A stretch of DNA of 36,479 nucleotides, taken from IMG/VR virus record IMGVR_UViG_3300031902_000552, positions 1-36,479 of that record; one strand, 5' to 3'. Shown piece by piece: positions 5,308 through 33,764 of the stretch. Within the stretch, counting starts at the first letter, position 1. Each line of letters starts with the position of its first letter. A model generated the notes under the pieces. The model worked only from the letters and a program-made list of their open reading frames with translations. It searched no databases and had not been told where the DNA came from. A program made the translations under genes and the position numbers. The stretch is from a virus.

Positions 5308-6024
5308 ATGGCCTGGACAGCACCCGCGACCTATTCGGTTGGTCAGGTGGTGGCCGCCGTGGATCTGAATTTGATCCGCGATAACCTGAACTACCTCAAA
5401 GGCAACGCCGGCCCAGTGGCGCTGGCCGACGCGCTCAGCATCGCGGTCAATGTGAATACCGCTGGTGGACTCACCGTGGTAAACAGCAATGCCGGCAGCA
5501 GCGCTCTGAGTGGCGTGGTGCTCAATAACGATGGCGGGAATGTGGCGGGGCTGTATCGCAATAGCTCCACCAACACGGCCTACGGCGGTGCAAACTCGCT
5601 TAACCTGCTGACCACCGGCGCGCATCCGTTCGGTTTTTCGACCAGCAACGCGCTGCGCATGTTGATTGACGCGAGTGGCAACGTGGGGATCGGCACGGCG
5701 AGTCCGCTGAGCAAACTGCATGTGGCGGGCGCGAGTGGCAGCAACGCAGTGATGCTCGCTGCCACTGGGGTCGGGGCAACGCCCGTCGTGCTGCTGCCTA
5801 CCAGTAGTTTTAGTAAATTCCTGATTCCCTTTGGCGGATGGAAAGACGACGTGAATAGTCTGACCAATGTGTTTAGTGCGCAAACGCTCCCGCCCGGCTC
5901 AACACTGCCCTTTGGGGTTGGCGGCAACACGGCGCAGCTGACGACCACGAGCGGAGGACTTTCCGTCAATCGCACCGCTGGCACGGGGACGTACTCACTG
6001 GTGCTGTGGGCGCTCTTTATATAG
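5308..6024 (+). CDS. Tail fibre / receptor-binding protein
   Basis: A 238-residue protein rich in Asn, Ser, Gly and Thr. The N-terminal segment (VGQVVAAVDLNLIRDNLNYL) matches the helix found at the start of many phage tail-tip proteins. Around residues 118-145 it has RMLIDASGNVGIGTASPLSK, the beta-structured repeat common in trimeric fibres. The C-terminal domain lacks the Ser-Asn motif of the self-cleaving S74 chaperone, so it probably trimerises without autoproteolysis. The ribosome-binding site TAGGAG lies just upstream of ATG 5308. It is the best candidate for host recognition in this genome. Confidence 0.8.
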   Translation: MAWTAPATYSVGQVVAAVDLNLIRDNLNYLKGNAGPVALADALSIAVNVNTAGGLTVVNSNAGSSALSGVVLNNDGGNVAGLYRNSSTNTAYGGANSLNLLTTGAHPFGFSTSNALRMLIDASGNVGIGTASPLSKLHVAGASGSNAVMLAATGVGATPVVLLPTSSFSKFLIPFGGWKDDVNSLTNVFSAQTLPPGSTLPFGVGGNTAQLTTTSGGLSVNRTAGTGTYSLVLWALFI

Positions 6025-6267: not shown

Positions 6268-6501
6268 CTCATCGCACGCAACGCGCCACGCGGCGTGGAG
6301 ATCGCGCAGCGGGCGGTCGTCGATTGCCTCCTGCACGATCAGCCAGGCCGCGAACGCTGGGGCGTAGTGAAACACGGCGGCGATAGCGTGCGCCTGGGCC
6401 GCACGCGGCTGATCGCGCAGCGTGAGCGCGTCGATAATGGTGCGCCATGGCATGGTGGCGGTGATCTGCACGGTTTGCCCGCTTTCTGCTGGAGGAGCCA
6501 T
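6253..6501 (-). CDS. Hypothetical 82-residue protein
   Basis: Read leftward from ATG 6501 (MAPPAESGQTVQITATMPWR), ending inside the 3' end of 6034-6267 with a 15-base overlap. Its composition is balanced and protein-like (FHYAPAFAAWLIVQEAIDDR), unlike the Arg/Ser-rich shadow frames. No ribosome-binding site is clear upstream of the ATG, and the same stretch carries the possible 5' end of the plus-strand gene ending at 6832. The open frame extends upstream to 6837, but that extension looks like shadow sequence. Real gene probability is about even. Confidence 0.45.
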   Translation of the reverse strand: MAPPAESGQTVQITATMPWRTIIDALTLRDQPRAAQAHAIAAVFHYAPAFAAWLIVQEAIDDRPLRDLHAAWRVACDESPLP

Positions 6502-6832
6502 CAAAGTATACCGCATCGCGCTGCTGCTGGCGCTGCTCATCACCGCCCCGCCGCCGCCATTCACCGCACGCTGGCAGGGATCGTCGGTTGCCCGGCTCGT
6601 GTGGCAACAGCCCGCCGACGTGGCCCTGACCTGCCTGTCGCGCAATGCGACGCTGATCCGCTGCTGGGCCGATCTGCCCGCCGGGCCGGTCGTGATCGCG
6701 CTGGGCAGCGTGGGGCCATTGGACGCCGCGTACCGCTCGCACGCGGGCGATGTGTTCGTGCTGGCGCTGGATGGACTGCGGGAGCGGGCGGCGCTGCGCG
6801 GGGTGGTACGGCTGGCGGTCGTCCGGCGGTGA
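6461..6832 (+). CDS. Small exported protein at end of the tail operon
   Basis: The convincing part begins near 6506 with a signal-peptide-like run VYRIALLLALLITAPPPP, followed by about 85 residues with two Cys (ALTCLSRNATLIRCWADLPA) that could form a disulfide. The stop TGA at 6830-6832 touches the terminator palindrome, as expected for the last gene of an operon. The start is uncertain. GTG 6461 is in frame, but the only strong ribosome-binding site, GGAGGAG at 6491-6497, precedes the non-standard codons ATC 6500 and GTA 6506. It may be a lysis accessory (outer-layer disruption) or an envelope protein; no family is recognised. Confidence 0.55.
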   Translation: MICTVCPLSAGGAIKVYRIALLLALLITAPPPPFTARWQGSSVARLVWQQPADVALTCLSRNATLIRCWADLPAGPVVIALGSVGPLDAAYRSHAGDVFVLALDGLRERAALRGVVRLAVVRR

Positions 6833-6887
6833 GGCACAAAAACGCCCGCCCCGATCAGCGCTGATCGGGGCGGGCGTTTTTGTGCCT
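6832..6887. terminator. Bidirectional terminator, 56-bp perfect palindrome
   Basis: Two 28-base arms meet with no spacer and pair perfectly: AGGCACAAAAACGCCCGCCC onward, mirrored to end GTTTTTGTGCCT. The GC core is flanked by an A5 run on the left and a T5 run on the right, so it terminates in both directions. It lies between the plus-strand gene ending at 6832 and the minus-strand gene ending at 6892. Confidence 0.93.
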
Positions 6888-6891
6888 GGAA

Positions 6892-7416
6892 TTAGGGGAT
6901 ACGCACCTGACAGCCGCACAGCAGATCGAGGATGACGGGCGTCGCAAGATCCTGGCGCTCGTGGCCGGGCCGATAGTGCGCGACGCTGCGCCCACGTGGA
7001 TCGACCACGAGCACATCGCGCACGCCACACGCGAGGTAGAACGGTGCGCCCTCGTCGCCGATGTCTTTTTCCTCATAGCCCAGGCTCAAAATCTCAATCA
7101 CCGCTGCCGGCAGCAGATCCAGCGCCGAATCCGTATCCGGCGGCTCCACACAGAAGATCGCGATGTCGGGCCGCTTGATGCTGGAATCGGGATCGGGGAA
7201 GCGAATGAACACATCTTGCAGGCTGTAGCAGGCGCAGCCGTCGGTGCGACCGGGGATCGGTCGGATCGATGCCTCAATCCGCTTGGCGGCCTTCTGGTGG
7301 CGGACGGCGGGGCTGGCTTCCCACTTGGTATGCCCGCGCACATATTCGAGCCGCACGGGCGCGCCGCTGGCGTCGGTGTGCAGCATCAATTCCAGCGGGT
7401 CGGTGGTGGTGGTCAT
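6892..7416 (-). CDS. Uma2-family (DUF820) PD-(D/E)XK endonuclease-like protein
   Basis: A 174-residue protein of the Uma2 family, a restriction-endonuclease-like fold whose cellular role is poorly known. Visible marks are RPDIAIF (Asp84), AAVIEILS (Glu108), a nearby Lys117 (YEEKDIG) and the VLVVDPRGRSVAHYR strand near 136-150. The middle is less canonical than in its neighbour: the usual 'SPSTRRRD-KL-LY' segment is altered to SLGYEEKDIGDEGAPFYLAC. It starts at ATG 7416 behind GGAGGAC and follows 7423-7998 by 6 bases, so the two are translated from one message. Paired divergent Uma2 copies suggest a dimer or two specificities, which is inference. Confidence 0.85.
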   Translation of the reverse strand: MTTTTDPLELMLHTDASGAPVRLEYVRGHTKWEASPAVRHQKAAKRIEASIRPIPGRTDGCACYSLQDVFIRFPDPDSSIKRPDIAIFCVEPPDTDSALDLLPAAVIEILSLGYEEKDIGDEGAPFYLACGVRDVLVVDPRGRSVAHYRPGHERQDLATPVILDLLCGCQVRIP

Positions 7417-7422
7417 ACTGAC

Positions 7423-7998
7423 TCAGTCCTCCGTTGTCGGCAGGCCCGCGAAGATCCGTGCCAGTGGCACCGCGAACCCCGGCAGCAGCGGCGACGTGAG
7501 CGTGTCGCCGTCGCGCAGCGCGAGCGCAAGCGTCAGCCCCGCCGCCGCTAATCGGTACACGTCGATGGATCGGCGCGGCCAGTCCACGATCCAATATTCG
7601 TCGCAGCCGGCGCGGCTGTACAGCTTCAGCTTGGTGTCGCGGTCACGGCGGGCGTTGGCACCGCCGGGGGAGAGCACCTCCACTACCAGCTCGGGCGCGG
7701 CGTAGAGCTTGCCGCCCGTGCCCAGGATGGCCGCGAGGCGCGCGGTGCTGGCCCAGACCACATCGGGCGCGACATCATCATCATCGGCGAGAATCAGGCC
7801 CGGCGCAATGGCGGCCATGCCACGGGTGTCGGGCAGCCCCCAGGCGTCGAGCAGGCCACTCAGCCGCCCACACACGACCTGGTGATGCCAGTTTGGTTGC
7901 TTCGACACGTACAGGTCTCCATCAATAATTTCGCGGCGCTTCCCATCGTCGGGGAAGGCCAACAGATCGGCGGATGTAAAGCGGGTTGCGGTGGTCAT
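7423..7998 (-). CDS. Uma2-family (DUF820) endonuclease
   Basis: A 191-residue Uma2 protein with the complete family signature: N-terminal FTSADLLAFPDDGKRREIID, APDVVWAS (Asp79), ELVVEVLSPGGANARRDRDT (Glu107, Lys123) and AGCDEYWIVDWPRRSIDVYR. The Asp-Glu-Lys set matches a PD-(D/E)XK metal-dependent nuclease site. Uma2 genes are greatly expanded in cyanobacteria and Chloroflexota, where they are mostly chromosomal; a tandem pair inside a phage genome is less usual. ATG 7998 overlaps the stop of the upstream HTH gene by 4 bases (ATGA). Confidence 0.93.
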   Translation of the reverse strand: MTTATRFTSADLLAFPDDGKRREIIDGDLYVSKQPNWHHQVVCGRLSGLLDAWGLPDTRGMAAIAPGLILADDDDVAPDVVWASTARLAAILGTGGKLYAAPELVVEVLSPGGANARRDRDTKLKLYSRAGCDEYWIVDWPRRSIDVYRLAAAGLTLALALRDGDTLTSPLLPGFAVPLARIFAGLPTTED

Positions 7999-11848: not shown

Positions 11849-12862
11849 CTAGGTCGCCGGGGGTGATCCTCCTTCCTCCAAGAGCGCGATCAGGGCATCG
11901 ATGTGATCGAGCGCCGTGTGATAGTCCGGTAGGCGGATCATGGTGTAGCTCGGCGCATGCACGAGTCGCGCGCGTTCCTGGGTTACGTAGGCGCGCGCGG
12001 CGGTGATTGCGATCTGTCGCTGGGCCTGCGCGGCCTGCCAGGTGGCGACCTGGACGCTGCCGCCCGCGCCGTTCGTGATCAGCGCCTGATCTGCGGCCTC
12101 GGCGGACTCGTAGGCGCGACGATCTGCGCCGGTCTCGCGCTCGGCTTTGGGCGTGCTGAGTATCCGCCGCTGGGCCTCGGCCAACGCCCGCTCCGGATAA
12201 TTGTAGTCGTGCGTTTTCCAGCCATCGGGCGCGATCAGGTGCGCCGGCGCGCCACGGCGATTCCATTGCCAGCCATCGGGCGCAGCGGGCCACGGCGCGG
12301 GCGGCGGCTGGCCGGGGCCGAGACGGGTGCCGCGCCGCTCGGGCGGTGGCGGGGCGTCGTCAAAATCCGCACCGGTGCGGATTTTGGTTACACGGATCGA
12401 TGACTCGATCTGGCGTTTCGTTGGCGGTTCTGGCGCGCTCAACGCCTGATCAACAAGCTCGGGCGGCGTGGACTCGCGCGCCAGCAGCGCCGCCGTTGAT
12501 TGTGTAAGCCAGTTGCGCGCAATCGCGTCGGCATACTGTGTATTCGCCATCGCCAGGCGGTGAATATTGAGCAGCCGCTCAGCGGTGTCGTCGCTGGTGC
12601 TGGTCGCCTCTAGAAAGATCTTCCACTCGCCGTGCTTCGCCAGCTCGTGTGCCTCGTTGAGCCAGCGGCACATATCCAACAGCGCCTCGCCGCTGCGCCG
12701 ACGTGCGCCGATGTAGTTGCGCGCAATCACTTGCAGCGGCTCGGGTAGCGCACCGGCCTGCGCGGGTAGCGCGGTGCCGTCCAGGTCGGCGCGCTGGCCG
12801 ACCGTGAAGCGCGTGCCGATCTTAAGCGTCGGCGCTTTGATACGATCAGTTAGTTTCCCCAT
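11849..12862 (-). CDS. DUF3102-like protein, candidate ParA partner (ParB substitute)
   Basis: A 337-residue protein overlapping the 3' end of parA by 13 bases. Residues about 45-125 (YIGARRRSGEALLDMCRWLN; HELAKHGEWKIFLEATSTSD; DTAERLLNIHRLAMANTQYA) match the pattern of DUF3102, helix-rich proteins often encoded beside ParA on phages and plasmids. A Pro-rich linker follows, then WQWNRRGAPAHLIAPDGWK and a C-terminal helical part. No classical ParB motif is visible, so it would be the DNA-binding adaptor of an atypical partition pair. The 109 bases after its stop (11740-11848) hold no recognised gene, and no clear terminator. Confidence 0.7.
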   Translation of the reverse strand: MGKLTDRIKAPTLKIGTRFTVGQRADLDGTALPAQAGALPEPLQVIARNYIGARRRSGEALLDMCRWLNEAHELAKHGEWKIFLEATSTSDDTAERLLNIHRLAMANTQYADAIARNWLTQSTAALLARESTPPELVDQALSAPEPPTKRQIESSIRVTKIRTGADFDDAPPPPERRGTRLGPGQPPPAPWPAAPDGWQWNRRGAPAHLIAPDGWKTHDYNYPERALAEAQRRILSTPKAERETGADRRAYESAEAADQALITNGAGGSVQVATWQAAQAQRQIAITAARAYVTQERARLVHAPSYTMIRLPDYHTALDHIDALIALLEEGGSPPAT

Positions 12863-13671
12863 CGGCTCCGCACTTCCTCGGCTAATGCTGCGTAGGCCGC
12901 TGCTCCTGCCGACGTCGGCGCGTAAGATGAGATCGGCTGCCCAGCGCTGGGCGCTTCGGCAAGGTAGGTGCTCAGCGGGATCTCGGTCGCGAACATCAGC
13001 GCGCCATACGCCGCCCGCGCTGCCTGGCCGATCTCGCGGCTGAGCGCCGTCCGTTTATCGACCATGGTGAGGACAATGCCGCCGATGTGCAGATCGGGGC
13101 TGATTGTCTGGATATCCTGGATCGTCTCGTTCAGCTTCTCCATCGCGTTCAAGGCCAGATACTGCGCTTGCAGCGGCACGATGATCGTGTCGGCTGCAAC
13201 GAGCGCGTTCGCCGTCATCAGGCCAATCGAGGGCGGGGAATCAATCAGGATGTAGTCGTACTGCTGCCGTGCGCAGCGTAGGCCGTTCTTCAGCAGCTGC
13301 TCGCGCCCGTACTTATTGGAGAGTCGCTCCTGCGCGCCGTCCAGGCGCCGGCTGGCCGGCAGTAGATCGACGCCGAACGCGGTGGTGATGATCGGCAGCT
13401 GCGTTGCCAGCGCTGGGTTTAAGAGCACTTCATAGATCATCGGATCATCGTCGCTGATTGCCACGCCCAGCGCGGTCGTCAGGTCGGACTGGTAGTCGGT
13501 GTCGATGCACAGCACGCGGGATCCGTGGCGTGCTAGCTCGACGGCCAGCGATGCGGTGGTGGTGGTCTTGCCGACGCCGCCTTTGGGTAAGACGAGCGCG
13601 ATGGTCTGGGCCGTGCGGTGCGCGGGTCGCACGCGGTACAGGGTTTCGGTTGGTTGTGTGTAGGCGATCAT
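12850..13671 (-). CDS. parA: ParA-family partition ATPase
   Basis: A 273-residue ParA/Soj-type ATPase that moves DNA cargo over the nucleoid. It has the deviant Walker A KGGVGKTT (residues 30-37, with both signature lysines), CIDTDYQSDLT for motif A', DYILIDSPPSIGLMTANALV for Walker B, and VPLQAQYLALNAMEKL. No N-terminal HTH is present, as in small plasmid (type Ib) and chromosomal ParA. The start is ATG 13671 behind GAGGAG. Five 8-bp repeats lie 20 bases upstream of the start. Its presence in a phage genome suggests maintenance as an extrachromosomal prophage. Confidence 0.95.
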   Translation of the reverse strand: MIAYTQPTETLYRVRPAHRTAQTIALVLPKGGVGKTTTTASLAVELARHGSRVLCIDTDYQSDLTTALGVAISDDDPMIYEVLLNPALATQLPIITTAFGVDLLPASRRLDGAQERLSNKYGREQLLKNGLRCARQQYDYILIDSPPSIGLMTANALVAADTIIVPLQAQYLALNAMEKLNETIQDIQTISPDLHIGGIVLTMVDKRTALSREIGQAARAAYGALMFATEIPLSTYLAEAPSAGQPISSYAPTSAGAAAYAALAEEVRSRWGN

Positions 13672-13690: not shown

Positions 13691-13730
13691 TGACAAGATG
13701 ACAAGATGACAAGATGACAAGATGACAAGC
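13691..13730. repeat. Five tandem 8-bp repeats upstream of parA (candidate centromere/operator)
   Basis: Five head-to-tail copies of TGACAAGA (the last ends in C) fill 13691-13730, between the parA start (13671) and the stop of the preceding gene (13730). Short tandem iterons just upstream of parA are a known form of partition site and autoregulatory operator in plasmids. Related simple repeats occur at 22690-22711 (GACAAGGAGACAGGGAGACA), so a low-complexity origin is also possible. Confidence 0.6.
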
Positions 13731-15897: not shown

Positions 15898-16151
15898 GCA
15901 TCCCTCCTACAGCTCGCGCAGATGCGCGCACCGTTGCACTCCCAACAGATCGCGGTCTGCCTGCGCGTCACGACGCCTTCGGCAGTGCAATCAGGACAGG
16001 TCACGCGATGCGTAAAGTCATCGGTATAGACATCGCCATCCCCCTCGCACTGCGCACACCGCACGACGACCGCGCGGGTGATCGTGCCCACGCCGGCGCA
16101 CTGGACACAATCGAGCGGTTTGCCGCAGATTTGGCAATCTCTGGACATCAT
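15894..16151 (-). CDS. DnaJ-type zinc-finger protein
   Basis: An 85-residue protein with six CxxC pairs: CQIC, CVQC, CAQC, CPDC, CWEC and CASC. The spacing with Gly (CVQCAGVG, CAQCEGDGD, CPDCTAEG) matches the Cys-rich central region of DnaJ and related zinc proteins, which holds two or more zinc ions and binds unfolded protein or DNA. No J-domain is present. Start ATG 16151 overlaps the upstream stop by 4 bases. Lying directly behind the helicase loader, it may assist replication complex assembly; this is inference. Confidence 0.78.
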   Translation of the reverse strand: MMSRDCQICGKPLDCVQCAGVGTITRAVVVRCAQCEGDGDVYTDDFTHRVTCPDCTAEGVVTRRQTAICWECNGARICASCRRDA

Positions 16152-17080
16152 GGCGTGCCGCGCAGGCGCTGATCGTCGGCGTCCATCAGGACAACTTCGC
16201 CGCGTGTCATCTGGTAGAGACGGCTGTAGGCGGCCTCCGACAAGGTGCCTTGATCCATCAGCTGCTCTAACGTTTTGTTGCTGGTGATGATCGTCCATCC
16301 GCACTTCGACCAGCGCCGGTTGATCACGTTGTACCAGACCTTTTGCACGCCGGTCGGATCTTTGCCGGGCCGGTTCTGGCCAAGGTCATCAATCACCGTC
16401 AGCCAGGCCTGCTCACCCGGCAGCATGCTCAGCCGCTCTTTGTCGGCAAAGTCGGCGGCCCAGCAGCGCTCCAGGTACGACACCTCTTCGATAAACACCG
16501 CCAGCTTGTGCATGGCCCGCGCCGCTAAGGCCGCGCCGGCGGCGAGATGGGTCTTGCCGGTGCCTTTGCCCGGATAGTACAAATGCAGCGCAACCGGCGG
16601 CTCCTGGTGGTAGTCGCCAGACGGCAGATCGTGAATCGCCGCCAACCAGTCGAGCACGCGCCCGTGGGGATTATCATCGCCCAGCGCGACGCGCAGCCGA
16701 TCCGGATCGAACGTCGCCAAGGTAAAGCGGGCGATGCGTGCCAGCCCCGGATCGCCCATGGTGCGCTCGGCCTCCAGCTGGCGTTGTGCCAGGTCGCTCG
16801 TACGATGCGCGATCTGCCGATCTTCGGCGTCCCATGCCTGCTGCTGCGCCTGACACACATTCCAGATCAGGAACGTGGAGCCGTTGTAGTGGCGGATCGG
16901 GACGGCGTGTTGCAGCTCGCTACAGCAGGGACAAGCGCGCGTGTCAGTCGCCAACAGGGGGCGCTTTCCGCCCGGCGACCTTGAGTCCGGGTGGGAGGAT
17001 CGGACGCTCGCGAATGCGCTCGGAAGGGAGGCGCTGATCGGGCGCATGGCTCGGTTGAACGGATCGATTCGGTCGCTCAT
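16148..17080 (-). CDS. dnaC: DnaC-like helicase loader (AAA+ ATPase)
   Basis: A 310-residue protein starting MSDRIDPFNRAMRPIS. A Cys cluster (RACPCCSELQ, residues about 49-53) near the N-terminus may bind zinc. The ATPase core has Walker A PGKGTGKTHLA (about 167-176), Walker B WLTVIDDLGQ (about 226-235), sensor-like WTIITSNKTLEQLM and the arginine-rich SRLYQMTRGEVVLM. This is the DnaC/phage P replicative loader group, which delivers host DnaB onto the origin; no helicase gene is present here. Its first 137 bases overlap the initiator gene 16944-17750 in another frame; AGAGGTG 5 bases before ATG 17080 supports that start. Confidence 0.88.
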   Translation of the reverse strand: MSDRIDPFNRAMRPISASLPSAFASVRSSHPDSRSPGGKRPLLATDTRACPCCSELQHAVPIRHYNGSTFLIWNVCQAQQQAWDAEDRQIAHRTSDLAQRQLEAERTMGDPGLARIARFTLATFDPDRLRVALGDDNPHGRVLDWLAAIHDLPSGDYHQEPPVALHLYYPGKGTGKTHLAAGAALAARAMHKLAVFIEEVSYLERCWAADFADKERLSMLPGEQAWLTVIDDLGQNRPGKDPTGVQKVWYNVINRRWSKCGWTIITSNKTLEQLMDQGTLSEAAYSRLYQMTRGEVVLMDADDQRLRGTP

Positions 17081-17750
17081 GGCACACCTCTGGCGCAATC
17101 ACGCGCTGCTGCTTTTTCCACTTGCCGACGGTAAACCAAAACGGCGTTTTCGCGAACGTTTGGGCGACGCGCAGATCCGCGTCGAAGTCGCCGACGGTGC
17201 CGGGCGGGCGCTGGGCGATGGCGCGGGCTAAGTCGCGATCCATGCGCGGTTCGGCCATCAGGCGTCGATAGAGCGGGGTGGTTGCAATCACAACAGCAGG
17301 CGCGCGCGACTCCTCCTCCTCCTGACTCAGAGAGTCATGTACCATTACGGGGGGCGTTGGGATCAGTAATTGATCCCTTGCCCCTCCCGGCGTCGAATCG
17401 GGGATCGGCAGCATTGGGACGGGCGATTTGCCTGCTTCGGGCAAGGGATCAATTGCTGATCCATCCGGTAACGGATCAAATGCTGATCCTTCCCGCGCGG
17501 GGAGCGCCAGCAGCCGAATCCAATAGCCACCGTGGCCACCGTTCATCGTCGGGTCTTTCTCGCGCTCGATAAACTTGTGGATGACCAGCTCGTGCATGAT
17601 CCGGCTGACGGTGCCCTCGCTGATGTGCCCGATCCGGGCGATCGCGTCCTGGCTGATCGCGCCCAGCTCGCCGATCTCCATGCAGGAATGCAGCACATCA
17701 AGGGCGCGGCCGGCGGCGAGCGAGAGCACAAAGGTTGCAGGGTGGTTCAT
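16944..17750 (-). CDS. Winged-helix replication initiator
   Basis: A 268-residue protein. Residues 1-90 form a winged helix (LDVLHSCMEIGELGAISQDA; ARIGHISEGTVSRIMHELVI; a wing at GGHGGYWIRLLAL), as in phage replisome-organiser and MarR-like proteins. The middle (95-150) is low-complexity and encoded by the GGATCA repeats; the C-terminal half has a basic stretch (FTVGKWKKQQRVIAPEVCHE). Order, initiator then DnaC-like loader, parallels lambda O-P, with the origin inside the initiator gene. ATG 17750 is preceded by AGGTG. The C-terminal 45 residues overlap the loader's N-terminus. Confidence 0.75.
   Translation of the reverse strand: MNHPATFVLSLAAGRALDVLHSCMEIGELGAISQDAIARIGHISEGTVSRIMHELVIHKFIEREKDPTMNGGHGGYWIRLLALPAREGSAFDPLPDGSAIDPLPEAGKSPVPMLPIPDSTPGGARDQLLIPTPPVMVHDSLSQEEEESRAPAVVIATTPLYRRLMAEPRMDRDLARAIAQRPPGTVGDFDADLRVAQTFAKTPFWFTVGKWKKQQRVIAPEVCHERPNRSVQPSHAPDQRLPSERIRERPILPPGLKVAGRKAPPVGD
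17359..17489. repeat. Three dyad repeats inside the initiator gene (candidate replication origin)
   Basis: Three 17-bp elements of form GGATCA-N5-TGATCC occur at 17360-17376, 17446-17462 and 17473-17489. The first, read on plus, and the second, read on minus, differ by one base; the consensus is GGATCAGCAATTGATCC. Copies 2 and 3 are translated in the same frame (SAIDPLP, SAFDPLP) but copy 1 is read in another frame (RDQLLIP), so the conservation is at the DNA level. Initiator-bound iterons inside the initiator gene are known in lambdoid phages. Confidence 0.72.
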
Positions 17751-18171: not shown

Positions 18172-19089
18172 GTGGCTGTCATCGCATTCCCGCGCCCCGT
18201 ATCGCGCACGCGTGCGCAAACAATGCGCACGCACATTCCGTCATGGCGAACCGCGCGGCTCGCTGACGGACGGCGACCCCGTGGCGTCGCCTCGTATGTT
18301 GCCAAGCTGGAACAGTTTCTGGAGTGGTCCGGCGAGATCACGCCGAACGATCTCACGGCTGACCTGATCGCGCGCTACAAGATCGCGCTGCATGAGCGCA
18401 ATCTGGCGATGGGAACCGTGCGCCATTGCCTGACCGTGCTGCGCGCATTTTGCGACTGGGGTGTCGCGCAGGGGCTGCTCGATAGTAATCCCGCGCTCGC
18501 GGTCGGCCATCCGCACGTGGAAGAGTCCGATCCTGATCCGCTCACGCGGGCGAAAATCGATGCCTTGCTGGCCGCGATTGACGAGCCGCCACAGTCACAC
18601 AAGCTGACCTGGCGGCGCAACCGGCGGGCGGTCATGCTCGGCCTGTATTGCGGTCTCCGAATCGCGGAGATCGCCGAGCTGAAATGGGGCGATGTCGATC
18701 TGGCGCGGGGCGAGATTATCGTCCGGAAAAAGGGCGGCAAGGGCGGCAAGAGCCGCGTGGTGCCGATCTGTGATGAATTGCTGGCGGAGCTGCGCCTGGC
18801 CAAGCACCAGCGGGTGGGCGATGCGGTGGTGGATCAGGGCGACGGGACGGCGCTGAGCGTCAAATCGCTCGGCCACATTTACGAGCGCTGGTTACGGCGG
18901 CGCGGGATCGTGTTGCATTCCCACCAGCTCCGCAAGACCTTCGCAACGGAGCTGTATATCGCTGGCGAGGATCTGGCGACGATTCAGCGGCTGCTCGGGC
19001 ATCGTGATCCGAAGACCACCATGCGCTATTTGGGGGCCAGCGCCCCCAAGGAACGGGCGGCGGTGCAGAAATTAAAATTCCGTAAGTAG
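18172..19089 (+). CDS. int: Tyrosine recombinase 1 (integrase / Xer-like)
   Basis: A 305-residue tyrosine recombinase with an N-terminal core-binding domain (YVAKLEQFLEWSGEITPNDL) and a complete catalytic set: Arg162 (YCGLRIAEIAEL), Lys in the KGGKGGKSR beta-hairpin, His251-x-x-Arg254 (HQLRKTF), His277 (LLGHRDPKTT) and nucleophile Tyr286 (MRYLG). Length and spacing fit XerC/D-like enzymes, so it may integrate the prophage or resolve dimers of a circular form. GTG 18172 stands 6 bases after AGGAGG. Between the terminator at 18014 and this gene, 18093-18114 contains GCATTGC and GCAATGC in inverted order, a possible arm or core site. Confidence 0.95.
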   Translation: MAVIAFPRPVSRTRAQTMRTHIPSWRTARLADGRRPRGVASYVAKLEQFLEWSGEITPNDLTADLIARYKIALHERNLAMGTVRHCLTVLRAFCDWGVAQGLLDSNPALAVGHPHVEESDPDPLTRAKIDALLAAIDEPPQSHKLTWRRNRRAVMLGLYCGLRIAEIAELKWGDVDLARGEIIVRKKGGKGGKSRVVPICDELLAELRLAKHQRVGDAVVDQGDGTALSVKSLGHIYERWLRRRGIVLHSHQLRKTFATELYIAGEDLATIQRLLGHRDPKTTMRYLGASAPKERAAVQKLKFRK

Positions 19090-31880: not shown

Positions 31881-32750
31881 ATGGCAAACAATCTGGCCGC
31901 CTTTAACGCGGAAGTCTGGTCGAAGTCGCTGATCATGAATCTCGACAAGATCAACGTGATGACCAATCTGGTCAACGACGACTACGAGGGTGAGATCACC
32001 GGCAAGGGCAGCACGGTCAAGGTCAGGACGCTGGGCAACATCTCGATGGGCGACTATGGTGGCGCGATCACCTACCAGGATCTCGCGCCGAGCCTGGAGT
32101 CGATGGTGATCGGCGACGCGAAGTACTTCGCCTTCCAGGTCAGTGACATCGAGGAGGCGCAGAACGACATCGACGCGCTGAACGCCTACACCGGCCGCGC
32201 CGCCATCGCGATGAACGATACGGTCGAGGCCAAGCTGCTGGGCAACTACGCGGCGATCGCGGCCGCCAACAAGATCACCGGCGCATCCAGCGCGGCGATC
32301 GCGCTCGACAAGGACAATATCTATCAGTACTTTGTGCAGGCCCGCACGGTGCTCTCCAAGGCGAATGTCCCGAACACCGGCCGCTGGTCGGTGATCGACC
32401 CGGATACCACGGCGCTGCTGCTGCGCGCGCCCGAGTTTGTGCGCGCGACGGATCTGGGCGACCAGGTGATCGTCTCGGGACGGGTGGGCACCGACAGCCG
32501 GCCGGGCTTCGTCGGCCGCGTGGCCGGCTTCGACGTGTATGAGTCGAACAACACGCCGGTCGTGAGTGGCGCGAAGTACCTCCAGTTCGGCGACCGCTAC
32601 TTCATCAGCTACGCCGCGCAGATCAGCGACGTGGAGGCCATCCGCCTGCAGAACGCGTTTGCGACCGCCGTGCGCGGGCTGCTGCTGCACGATTGCAAGG
32701 TGTTTGCCGAGGGCGCGAAGCGCGGCGCGTCCATCAAGGCCGTGGCGTAG
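31881..32750 (+). CDS. Major capsid protein
   Basis: A 289-residue coat protein starting MANNLAAFNAEVWSKSLIMN. The VRTLGNISMGDYGGAITYQD, YFAFQVSDIEEAQNDIDALN (E-loop and spine helix) and TGRWSVIDPDTTALLLRAPE, VGRVAGFDVYESNNTP (P- and A-domain) pattern is that of the HK97-fold P22-coat-like or SPP1-neighbourhood coat proteins. GGAG lies before ATG 31881. No prohead protease gene or delta domain is present, in keeping with a separate scaffold. Confidence 0.93.
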   Translation: MANNLAAFNAEVWSKSLIMNLDKINVMTNLVNDDYEGEITGKGSTVKVRTLGNISMGDYGGAITYQDLAPSLESMVIGDAKYFAFQVSDIEEAQNDIDALNAYTGRAAIAMNDTVEAKLLGNYAAIAAANKITGASSAAIALDKDNIYQYFVQARTVLSKANVPNTGRWSVIDPDTTALLLRAPEFVRATDLGDQVIVSGRVGTDSRPGFVGRVAGFDVYESNNTPVVSGAKYLQFGDRYFISYAAQISDVEAIRLQNAFATAVRGLLLHDCKVFAEGAKRGASIKAVA

Positions 32751-32756
32751 GATGAT

Positions 32757-32833
32757 GGGGGTTGGGGGATAGGGGTTGGGGGTTGGGGGCCGCGCAAGGT
32801 CTTCCGATCCCTATCCCCCATCCCCCAACCCCC
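32757..32833. repeat. G-rich inverted repeat between coat and connector genes
   Basis: GGGGGTTGGGGGAT (32757-32770) pairs perfectly with ATCCCCCAACCCCC (32820-32833); three further G-runs (32772-32789) lie in the loop. RNA or DNA could form a hairpin or, with five or more G-tracts in a row, a G-quadruplex. It may reduce read-through from coat to connector genes or stabilise the coat message's 3' end. Confidence 0.8.
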
Positions 32834-32844
32834 AAGGGATTGCT

Positions 32845-33414
32845 ATGACCCCACGACCCACCATGACAACCTTGATCACGCGACTGGGCAAGCTGCTGCC
32901 GGCCGGCACGTCGTTCGACGACGACGATCTGCAAGGCATGCTCGACGATCACGCCTTCAGCTTCGATGCGCAGCTGGTGCCGCGCATGCCGTTCTACAAG
33001 CAGCACGAGGCACCGTATGAAAATATCGAGGCCGGATGTGGCGTGTATGTCGGCTACAACCAGGTGCTCGTCGAGGGCACCGACTACACGATCGACCTGG
33101 CGCGCGGGATCGTCAGCACGCCCGCTGCCGACCGGCGCGGCCTGATGATCCAGGGCAGCGCCTACGACCTCAATGCGGCCGCAGCGGACGGCTGGGCGAA
33201 GATCGCCGGCGGCTACGTGGGCGAGTTCGACATTGGCTCGCCGGACGGCAGTTTGAAGCTCAGCCAGCAATATGATCACGCAATCACGCAAGAAACGAAG
33301 TACCGTGCGAAGGCCTGGGCCACGCAATCGAACGTCGAGCGCAGCGACATGACCGGGAATCGCGATACGACCGCAGATCGGCTGCGCGACGGCTTTCGGA
33401 GAACCGAGCGATGA
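32845..33414 (+). CDS. Head-tail adaptor protein
   Basis: A 189-residue protein starting ATG 32845 with AAGGGA upstream. Acidic N-terminal helix part (ITRLGKLLPAGTSFDDDDLQ), a beta-region (GCGVYVGYNQVLVEGTDYTI) and a helical section ending RRTER. Position directly after the coat matches the first connector (gp15-like) that docks on the portal. Its own family is not recognised. Confidence 0.72.
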   Translation: MTPRPTMTTLITRLGKLLPAGTSFDDDDLQGMLDDHAFSFDAQLVPRMPFYKQHEAPYENIEAGCGVYVGYNQVLVEGTDYTIDLARGIVSTPAADRRGLMIQGSAYDLNAAAADGWAKIAGGYVGEFDIGSPDGSLKLSQQYDHAITQETKYRAKAWATQSNVERSDMTGNRDTTADRLRDGFRRTER

Positions 33415-33764
33415 GCATCGACAAGGGGATTGCACGCGGACAGCAGGCGATGCGCATGCTCCTGCGCGACGCGGCCCTGATCACACACACGCCGCTCGTG
33501 AGCGATGGGCGCGGCGGCTACGTGCCCGGCACGCCCACCGCCACCGCAACGGTAGCGAATGTGCGGCGCACGCTCGGCGCGAGCGAGCAGGTGATCGCTG
33601 ATCGGCTGGCGGTGGTGTCACCGGCGGTGATCCAGGTGCCGGTTGATACGGTGCTGGTCGCAAGCGACACCATCACGGTCAACGCGACGCACACCTTCCA
33701 GGTGGTGAGTCCGCTGGAGAACACGATCCAGCTGACCTTGAAGCTGCTGTGCAAGGAACTGTGA
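33411..33764 (+). CDS. Head closure / head-tail joining protein
   Basis: A 117-residue protein. After a helical start (QQAMRMLLRDAALITHTPLV) the beta-rich body (VRRTLGASEQVIADRLAVVS; VLVASDTITVNATHTFQVVS) matches the size and strand pattern of gp16/FII-type stoppers. Overlaps the adaptor stop by 4 bases. Confidence 0.72.
   Translation: MSIDKGIARGQQAMRMLLRDAALITHTPLVSDGRGGYVPGTPTATATVANVRRTLGASEQVIADRLAVVSPAVIQVPVDTVLVASDTITVNATHTFQVVSPLENTIQLTLKLLCKEL

Follow-up and report, generated by a model that had tools for sequence, protein, structure and literature searches.

A candidate in-gene replication origin of three dyads, paired with a MarR-like winged-helix initiator, in a phage genome

Embedded in a phage gene, a segment of about 130 bp carrying three short dyads is best read as the initiator-binding array of a replication origin located inside the initiator's own gene, in the manner of lambda O/ori; judging from sequence, we place the probability of this reading at roughly 85%. 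The window (the whole stretch of DNA that was analysed) is a complete IMG/VR virus record of 36,479 bases. The gene that holds the array (16944-17750, minus strand) encodes a putative replication initiator of 268 amino acids, consisting of an N-terminal winged helix, a dyad-bearing linker, and a C-terminal part, and it adjoins a gene for a helicase loader. Our preferred reading is an in-gene iteron origin that would be served by a MarR-like initiator, a protein belonging by profile to neither the Phage_rep_O nor the RepA_N family.

The dyads have the form GGATCA-N5-TGATCC, with invariant half-sites (GGATCA and TGATCC) and a free 5-bp spacer. On the plus strand they read GGATCA-GTAAT-TGATCC at 17360-17376 (copy 1), GGATCA-ATTGC-TGATCC at 17446-17462 (copy 2), and GGATCA-AATGC-TGATCC at 17473-17489 (copy 3). 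Copies 2 and 3 make up an in-frame, tandem direct repeat of 27 nt; copy 1 is inverted relative to copy 2: copy 1 on the plus strand (GGATCAGTAATTGATCC) and copy 2 on the minus strand (GGATCAGCAATTGATCC) differ by a single base, and together with their flanks the two make a 24-nt inverted repeat that is 96% complementary. Within the minus-strand gene the copies begin at offsets 261 (copy 3), 288 (copy 2) and 374 (copy 1), in frames 0, 0 and 2, and are translated as GSAFDP, GSAIDP and DQLLIP, respectively; the array spans nucleotides 261-391 of the coding sequence. A first-pass annotation of this DNA had reported three such dyads within 131 bases, the one-base difference between copies 1 and 2 on opposite strands, and the different frame of copy 1, all of which are confirmed here, with the correction that its start (17359) is one base early. 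It had also proposed counting the 17-mer elsewhere in the genome: the record contains exactly three exact copies, all within this gene, and an exact search of the entire 36,479 bases returned no further one. Just past the array lies ATGGTACATGA (17335-17345, minus strand), 11 bases encoding MVHD, which is identical at a like place in a related locus, L036.

The array is maintained at the level of DNA. When the protein was held fixed, three equal dyads with 6-bp arms never arose, whether codons were redrawn synonymously (0 of 20,000) or synonymous codons were permuted (0 of 20,000); at least two dyads appeared in 19 and 46 of the 20,000, respectively. The three-dyad array is also the only clustered array of its kind in the record. 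The arms use codons that the rest of the record seldom employs (GGA accounts for 5.7% of Gly, TCA for 7.9% of Ser). The recoding null and the rare arm codons therefore indicate that the DNA itself is constrained, and the earlier claim that selection acts on DNA and not on protein is borne out by the null (0 of 40,000), the rare codons and the change of frame. A freer statistic counts pairs of 17-mers, direct or inverted, that match at 14 or more of 17 positions and lie within 160 bp. Among the window's likely genes it picks out this one, and the corresponding gene scores just as high in two relatives, L005 and L006. In a wider, mechanically called set of ORFs, two minus-strand ORFs (6269-7030 and 32734-33435) also score high, the latter covering a simple heptad repeat.

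The N-terminal domain of the putative initiator (residues 1-81; 17508-17750, minus strand) is a winged-helix DNA-binding domain by its match to the Pfam MarR profile (PF01047) over residues 25-67 (E 1.9e-6; 28.1 bits against a curated cut-off of 24.6), as had been expected of the product; the homolog in L036 scores 21.4 bits, just under the cut-off, and a three-member winged-helix profile finds MarR-type regulators in the PDB (E 0.003). The dyads encode a Pro-rich, low-complexity linker, in agreement with the low-complexity coding sequence noted earlier at this spot. Profile searches recognised no replication domain in the C-terminal part, and the initiator matched neither the Phage_rep_O profile (PF04492) nor, up to E 0.1, that of RepA_N (PF06970). 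The likeness to lambda O that had been suggested thus holds for the layout, in-gene iterons, and fails for the protein, which lies outside the lambda O family. An AlphaFold2 prediction of the full initiator (pLDDT 44) shows helices and strands compatible with a winged helix and, after it, a disordered linker; at that confidence the model is too poor for a fold search.

Downstream, the last 137 bp of the initiator gene overlap the start of the next gene out of frame (16944-17080). That gene (16148-17080, minus strand) encodes a DnaC/IstB-like helicase loader (PHROG 50 DnaC-like loader, E 3.2e-22; Pfam IstB) whose relatives are 71-76% identical. Temperate phages classically arrange their early replication module in this way, with the loader gene after the initiator gene, as in lambda O and P. 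Out-of-frame overlap of the two genes is seen in three phages: over 137 bp in the window, 134 bp in L005 (6016-6149), and 116 bp in L006 (1635-1750). No match was found when the initiator and the loader were used as protein queries against phages and plasmids, nor when the loader was searched against genome contigs.

The relation between dyad and protein can be approached from either side. From the side of the DNA, we scanned 2.9 million viral contigs for two dyads lying 0-30, 31-60 or 61-90 bp apart, using no protein information, and four contigs were returned (L034, L035, L036 and L041). L036 carries two identical copies of GGATCAGCAGATGATCC in the linker of its protein, in two reading frames (GSADDP and DQQMIP), and its winged helix (the first 81 residues) is 62% identical to that of the window, while its loader differs, being only 27% identical to the window's. 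The linker of a longer L041 protein, which comes after a homologous winged helix (BLASTP E 9e-8; profile match), holds two dyads. In both, the array occupies a position in the coding sequence like that in the window, and the C-terminus differs from that of the window's initiator; the winged helix and the dyads are inherited together. When the winged-helix alignment itself served as scan query, L036 was the sole match. In L035 it is a Phage_rep_O protein (E 1.3e-16), the only PF04492 match, whose linker holds two dyads; AT-rich repeats come after them, as in the lambda origin. The records of L035, L036 and L041 hold no exact dyad copies beyond the paired ones, and the array DNA found no match among plasmids. 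The fourth contig, L034, is a 46-kb phage contig with nine near-identical copies of GGRTCAAAAATTGATCC at 7623-7854, spaced 23-30 bp and intergenic; a search of its record for the window's winged helix and for an O protein found neither, and the dyad word alone does not, therefore, imply an in-gene origin.

Starting instead from the loader, we find that L005 and L006, whose loaders are 72% and 76% identical to the window's, contain no homolog of its winged helix by profile search and no GGATCA-N5-TGATCC dyads. The only initiator DNA of the window that matches L005 is the 3' end (16944-17058, minus strand), inside the loader overlap. The winged helix of L006 is an HTH_36 domain and that of L005 a weak HTH_36 match, and each locus has an array of its own between the winged helix and the C-terminal part, absent elsewhere in its record: four TGTGAY-N6-RTCACA dyads in L005, and a GACA-N3-TGTC array in L006. 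Between these two loci the DNA is 88% identical up to positions 5320 (L005) and 376 (L006) and 77% identical again from 5832 and 1451; the block that does not align contains the winged helix and the array (plus one extra gene in L006), so domain and array have been replaced together. Covariation therefore runs both ways, with L036 and L041 on one side and L005 and L006 on the other, and points to dyads specific to the DNA-binding domain of the initiator. The first-pass annotation had tied its reading to conservation of the 17-mer in relatives that keep the protein: relatives that share the winged helix (L036 and L041) do have the dyads, and those that share only the loader and the C-terminal tail do not. 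Its broader proposal of a lambda-type in-gene iteron origin is strongly favoured on comparative grounds: the dyads follow the DNA-binding domain, other domains with the same loader have other dyads, and in L035 the same dyad recurs in the linker of a genuine member of the lambda O family.

In a survey of the window and 21 further, more distant loci found through the loader, the gene preceding the loader often has internal repeats beyond what the protein demands: they are present in 9 of 20 such genes, compared with 12 of 246 among other ORFs and none of 21 loaders, these being mechanical ORF calls in which some initiators are misassigned and from which the initiators of L005, L014 and L028 are left out of the 9 of 20. 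Taken singly, the initiators of these three loci score high for repeats. Several of the repeats found in such genes look like DNA signals. In-gene tandem repeats of 11 bp (of the CGACCGCCGGA type) precede DnaC-like loaders at 5005-5059 in L014 and 5498-5547 in L021; since units of 11 bp cannot hold one reading frame, they probably act as DNA and are likely in-gene origins of other phages.

Because the dyad word travels with the DNA-binding part in related phages, it is very probably the predicted docking site, that is, the origin. We propose that the initiator would dock on the array by its N-terminal winged helix, probably with a dimer on each 17-bp dyad given the fixed half-sites and free spacer, and would fold the array DNA into an initiation complex; melting would occur, the DnaC-like loader from the adjacent, overlapping gene would bring in the host replicative helicase, and replication would begin on the array or next to it. 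The stretch of linker that the array encodes would carry the DNA signal and not a conserved protein sequence. An AT-rich region stands beside the dyads in L035 and is hinted at in L036; near the array of the window no clear melting region was found, the 60 bp past it being 37% AT against 38-39% around. Nor was the inflection of cumulative GC skew seen that had been put forward as a check near 17.4 kb: the minimum lies at base 46, a weak test because skew in this record follows gene direction.

By profile matches, the record also encodes a terminase, a portal, a major capsid protein, a sheath-like protein, two tyrosine integrases (one of them at 18172-19089), and ParA (12850-13671, minus strand). 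Its TerL is 59% identical to that of a Kouleothrix aurantiaca contig, and the phages with the MarR-like initiator and the dyads probably have Chloroflexota hosts, an assignment from sequence that is a guess. Directly upstream of parA are five tandem TGACAAGA repeats of 8 bp (13691-13729; 100% match), a candidate partition centromere or operator and a hint of a plasmid-like prophage. The gene after parA (11849-12862) has a weak DUF3102 match, could encode a ParB-like partner, and has a 58%-identical stretch in common with a larger ORF of the L006 record. On the 3' side of the major capsid gene, the heptad TGGGGGT is repeated 4.9 times (32756-32820), and an inverted arm at 32804-32820 matches it, making a hairpin possible.

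Could the dyads serve something other than replication? The domain of the protein most resembles MarR-type regulators, a group in which autoregulation through palindromes is common, and the dyads might accordingly be operators by which the winged-helix protein represses or activates transcription inside its own gene with no part in replication start. We regard this as unlikely, as neither the region upstream of the gene nor any promoter holds a dyad, the array lies within the coding sequence, at nucleotides 261-391, with a comparable position in L036 and L041, the gene adjoins that of a DnaC-like loader, and the same dyad recurs in the linker of the lambda O-family gene of L035; autoregulation may take place alongside origin function. 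It is considerably less probable that the array is the parS centromere of the ParA partition system, even with parA 3.7 kb off, suggesting a plasmid-like prophage, and with parS sites often palindromic and repeated: the five exact repeats directly upstream of parA are the better candidate, and in other phages the dyads go with the initiator's winged helix.

Two further explanations seem to us hardly tenable. Copies 2 and 3, as an in-frame tandem repeat of 27 nt, could be taken for the by-product of a duplicated low-complexity peptide (GSAxDPLPx) or for a decaying minisatellite with no function as DNA; against this, synonymous recoding never yields three dyads, copy 1 has the opposite orientation and a different frame, the arms retain rare codons, and L036 uses an identical 17-mer in two frames. 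The tyrosine integrase gene begins about 0.7 kb from the dyads, and integrase core sites are short inverted repeats, so that the dyads might be accessory or core sites of this enzyme; they occur, however, in several copies in a coding region and track the winged helix of the initiator across phages, and an attachment site within the initiator gene would split that gene on integration.

More tentatively, and at somewhat less than even odds, we suggest that the window represents a new family of phage initiators, MarR-like and with an in-gene dyad origin, in which domain and origin move as one cassette independently of the C-terminus and the loader, and whose dyad also serves a lambda O-family initiator of no detectable sequence similarity, by convergence or by exchange of the origin word. 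The arrangement offers a way of finding origins in uncultured phages from sequence only, namely by checking, in the gene that precedes the loader, whether the linker holds dyads or repeats beyond what synonymous recoding explains, and the pairing of a winged helix with a DNA word in several phages provides a ready test set for recognition.

Among known systems, the closest in layout is lambda O/ori (PF04492; also the lambdoid phages P27 and 933W), whose iterons are 19-bp imperfect inverted repeats bound by O dimers (PMC7466680). As in lambda, short inverted-repeat iterons lie inside the initiator gene and the loader gene (P in lambda) adjoins it, and L035 has the very same dyad in an O-family gene; unlike lambda, the window's protein has no PF04492 match, its loader is DnaC/IstB-like, and its array consists of three 17-bp dyads, one of them distant and inverted, with no evident AT-rich block. 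Phage initiators of the HTH_36 type (PF13730; L006 and L012) likewise have a winged helix, a linker with in-gene repeats and a DnaC-like loader downstream, but the winged-helix family and the repeats are different. In RepA_N initiators (pSK41), the N-terminal winged helix binds Rep boxes central in its own gene, and the encoded linker is dispensable (PMC5703833); the present system differs in having no profile match to that family, a phage setting with its own helicase loader, and a MarR-like winged helix. Between pPR9 and pSK41, domain and origin were swapped as one block while the C-terminus was kept (PMC5703833), which resembles the block swap of domain and array between L005 and L006, so that domain-plus-origin exchange, known from a staphylococcal plasmid, is also found in unrelated phages.
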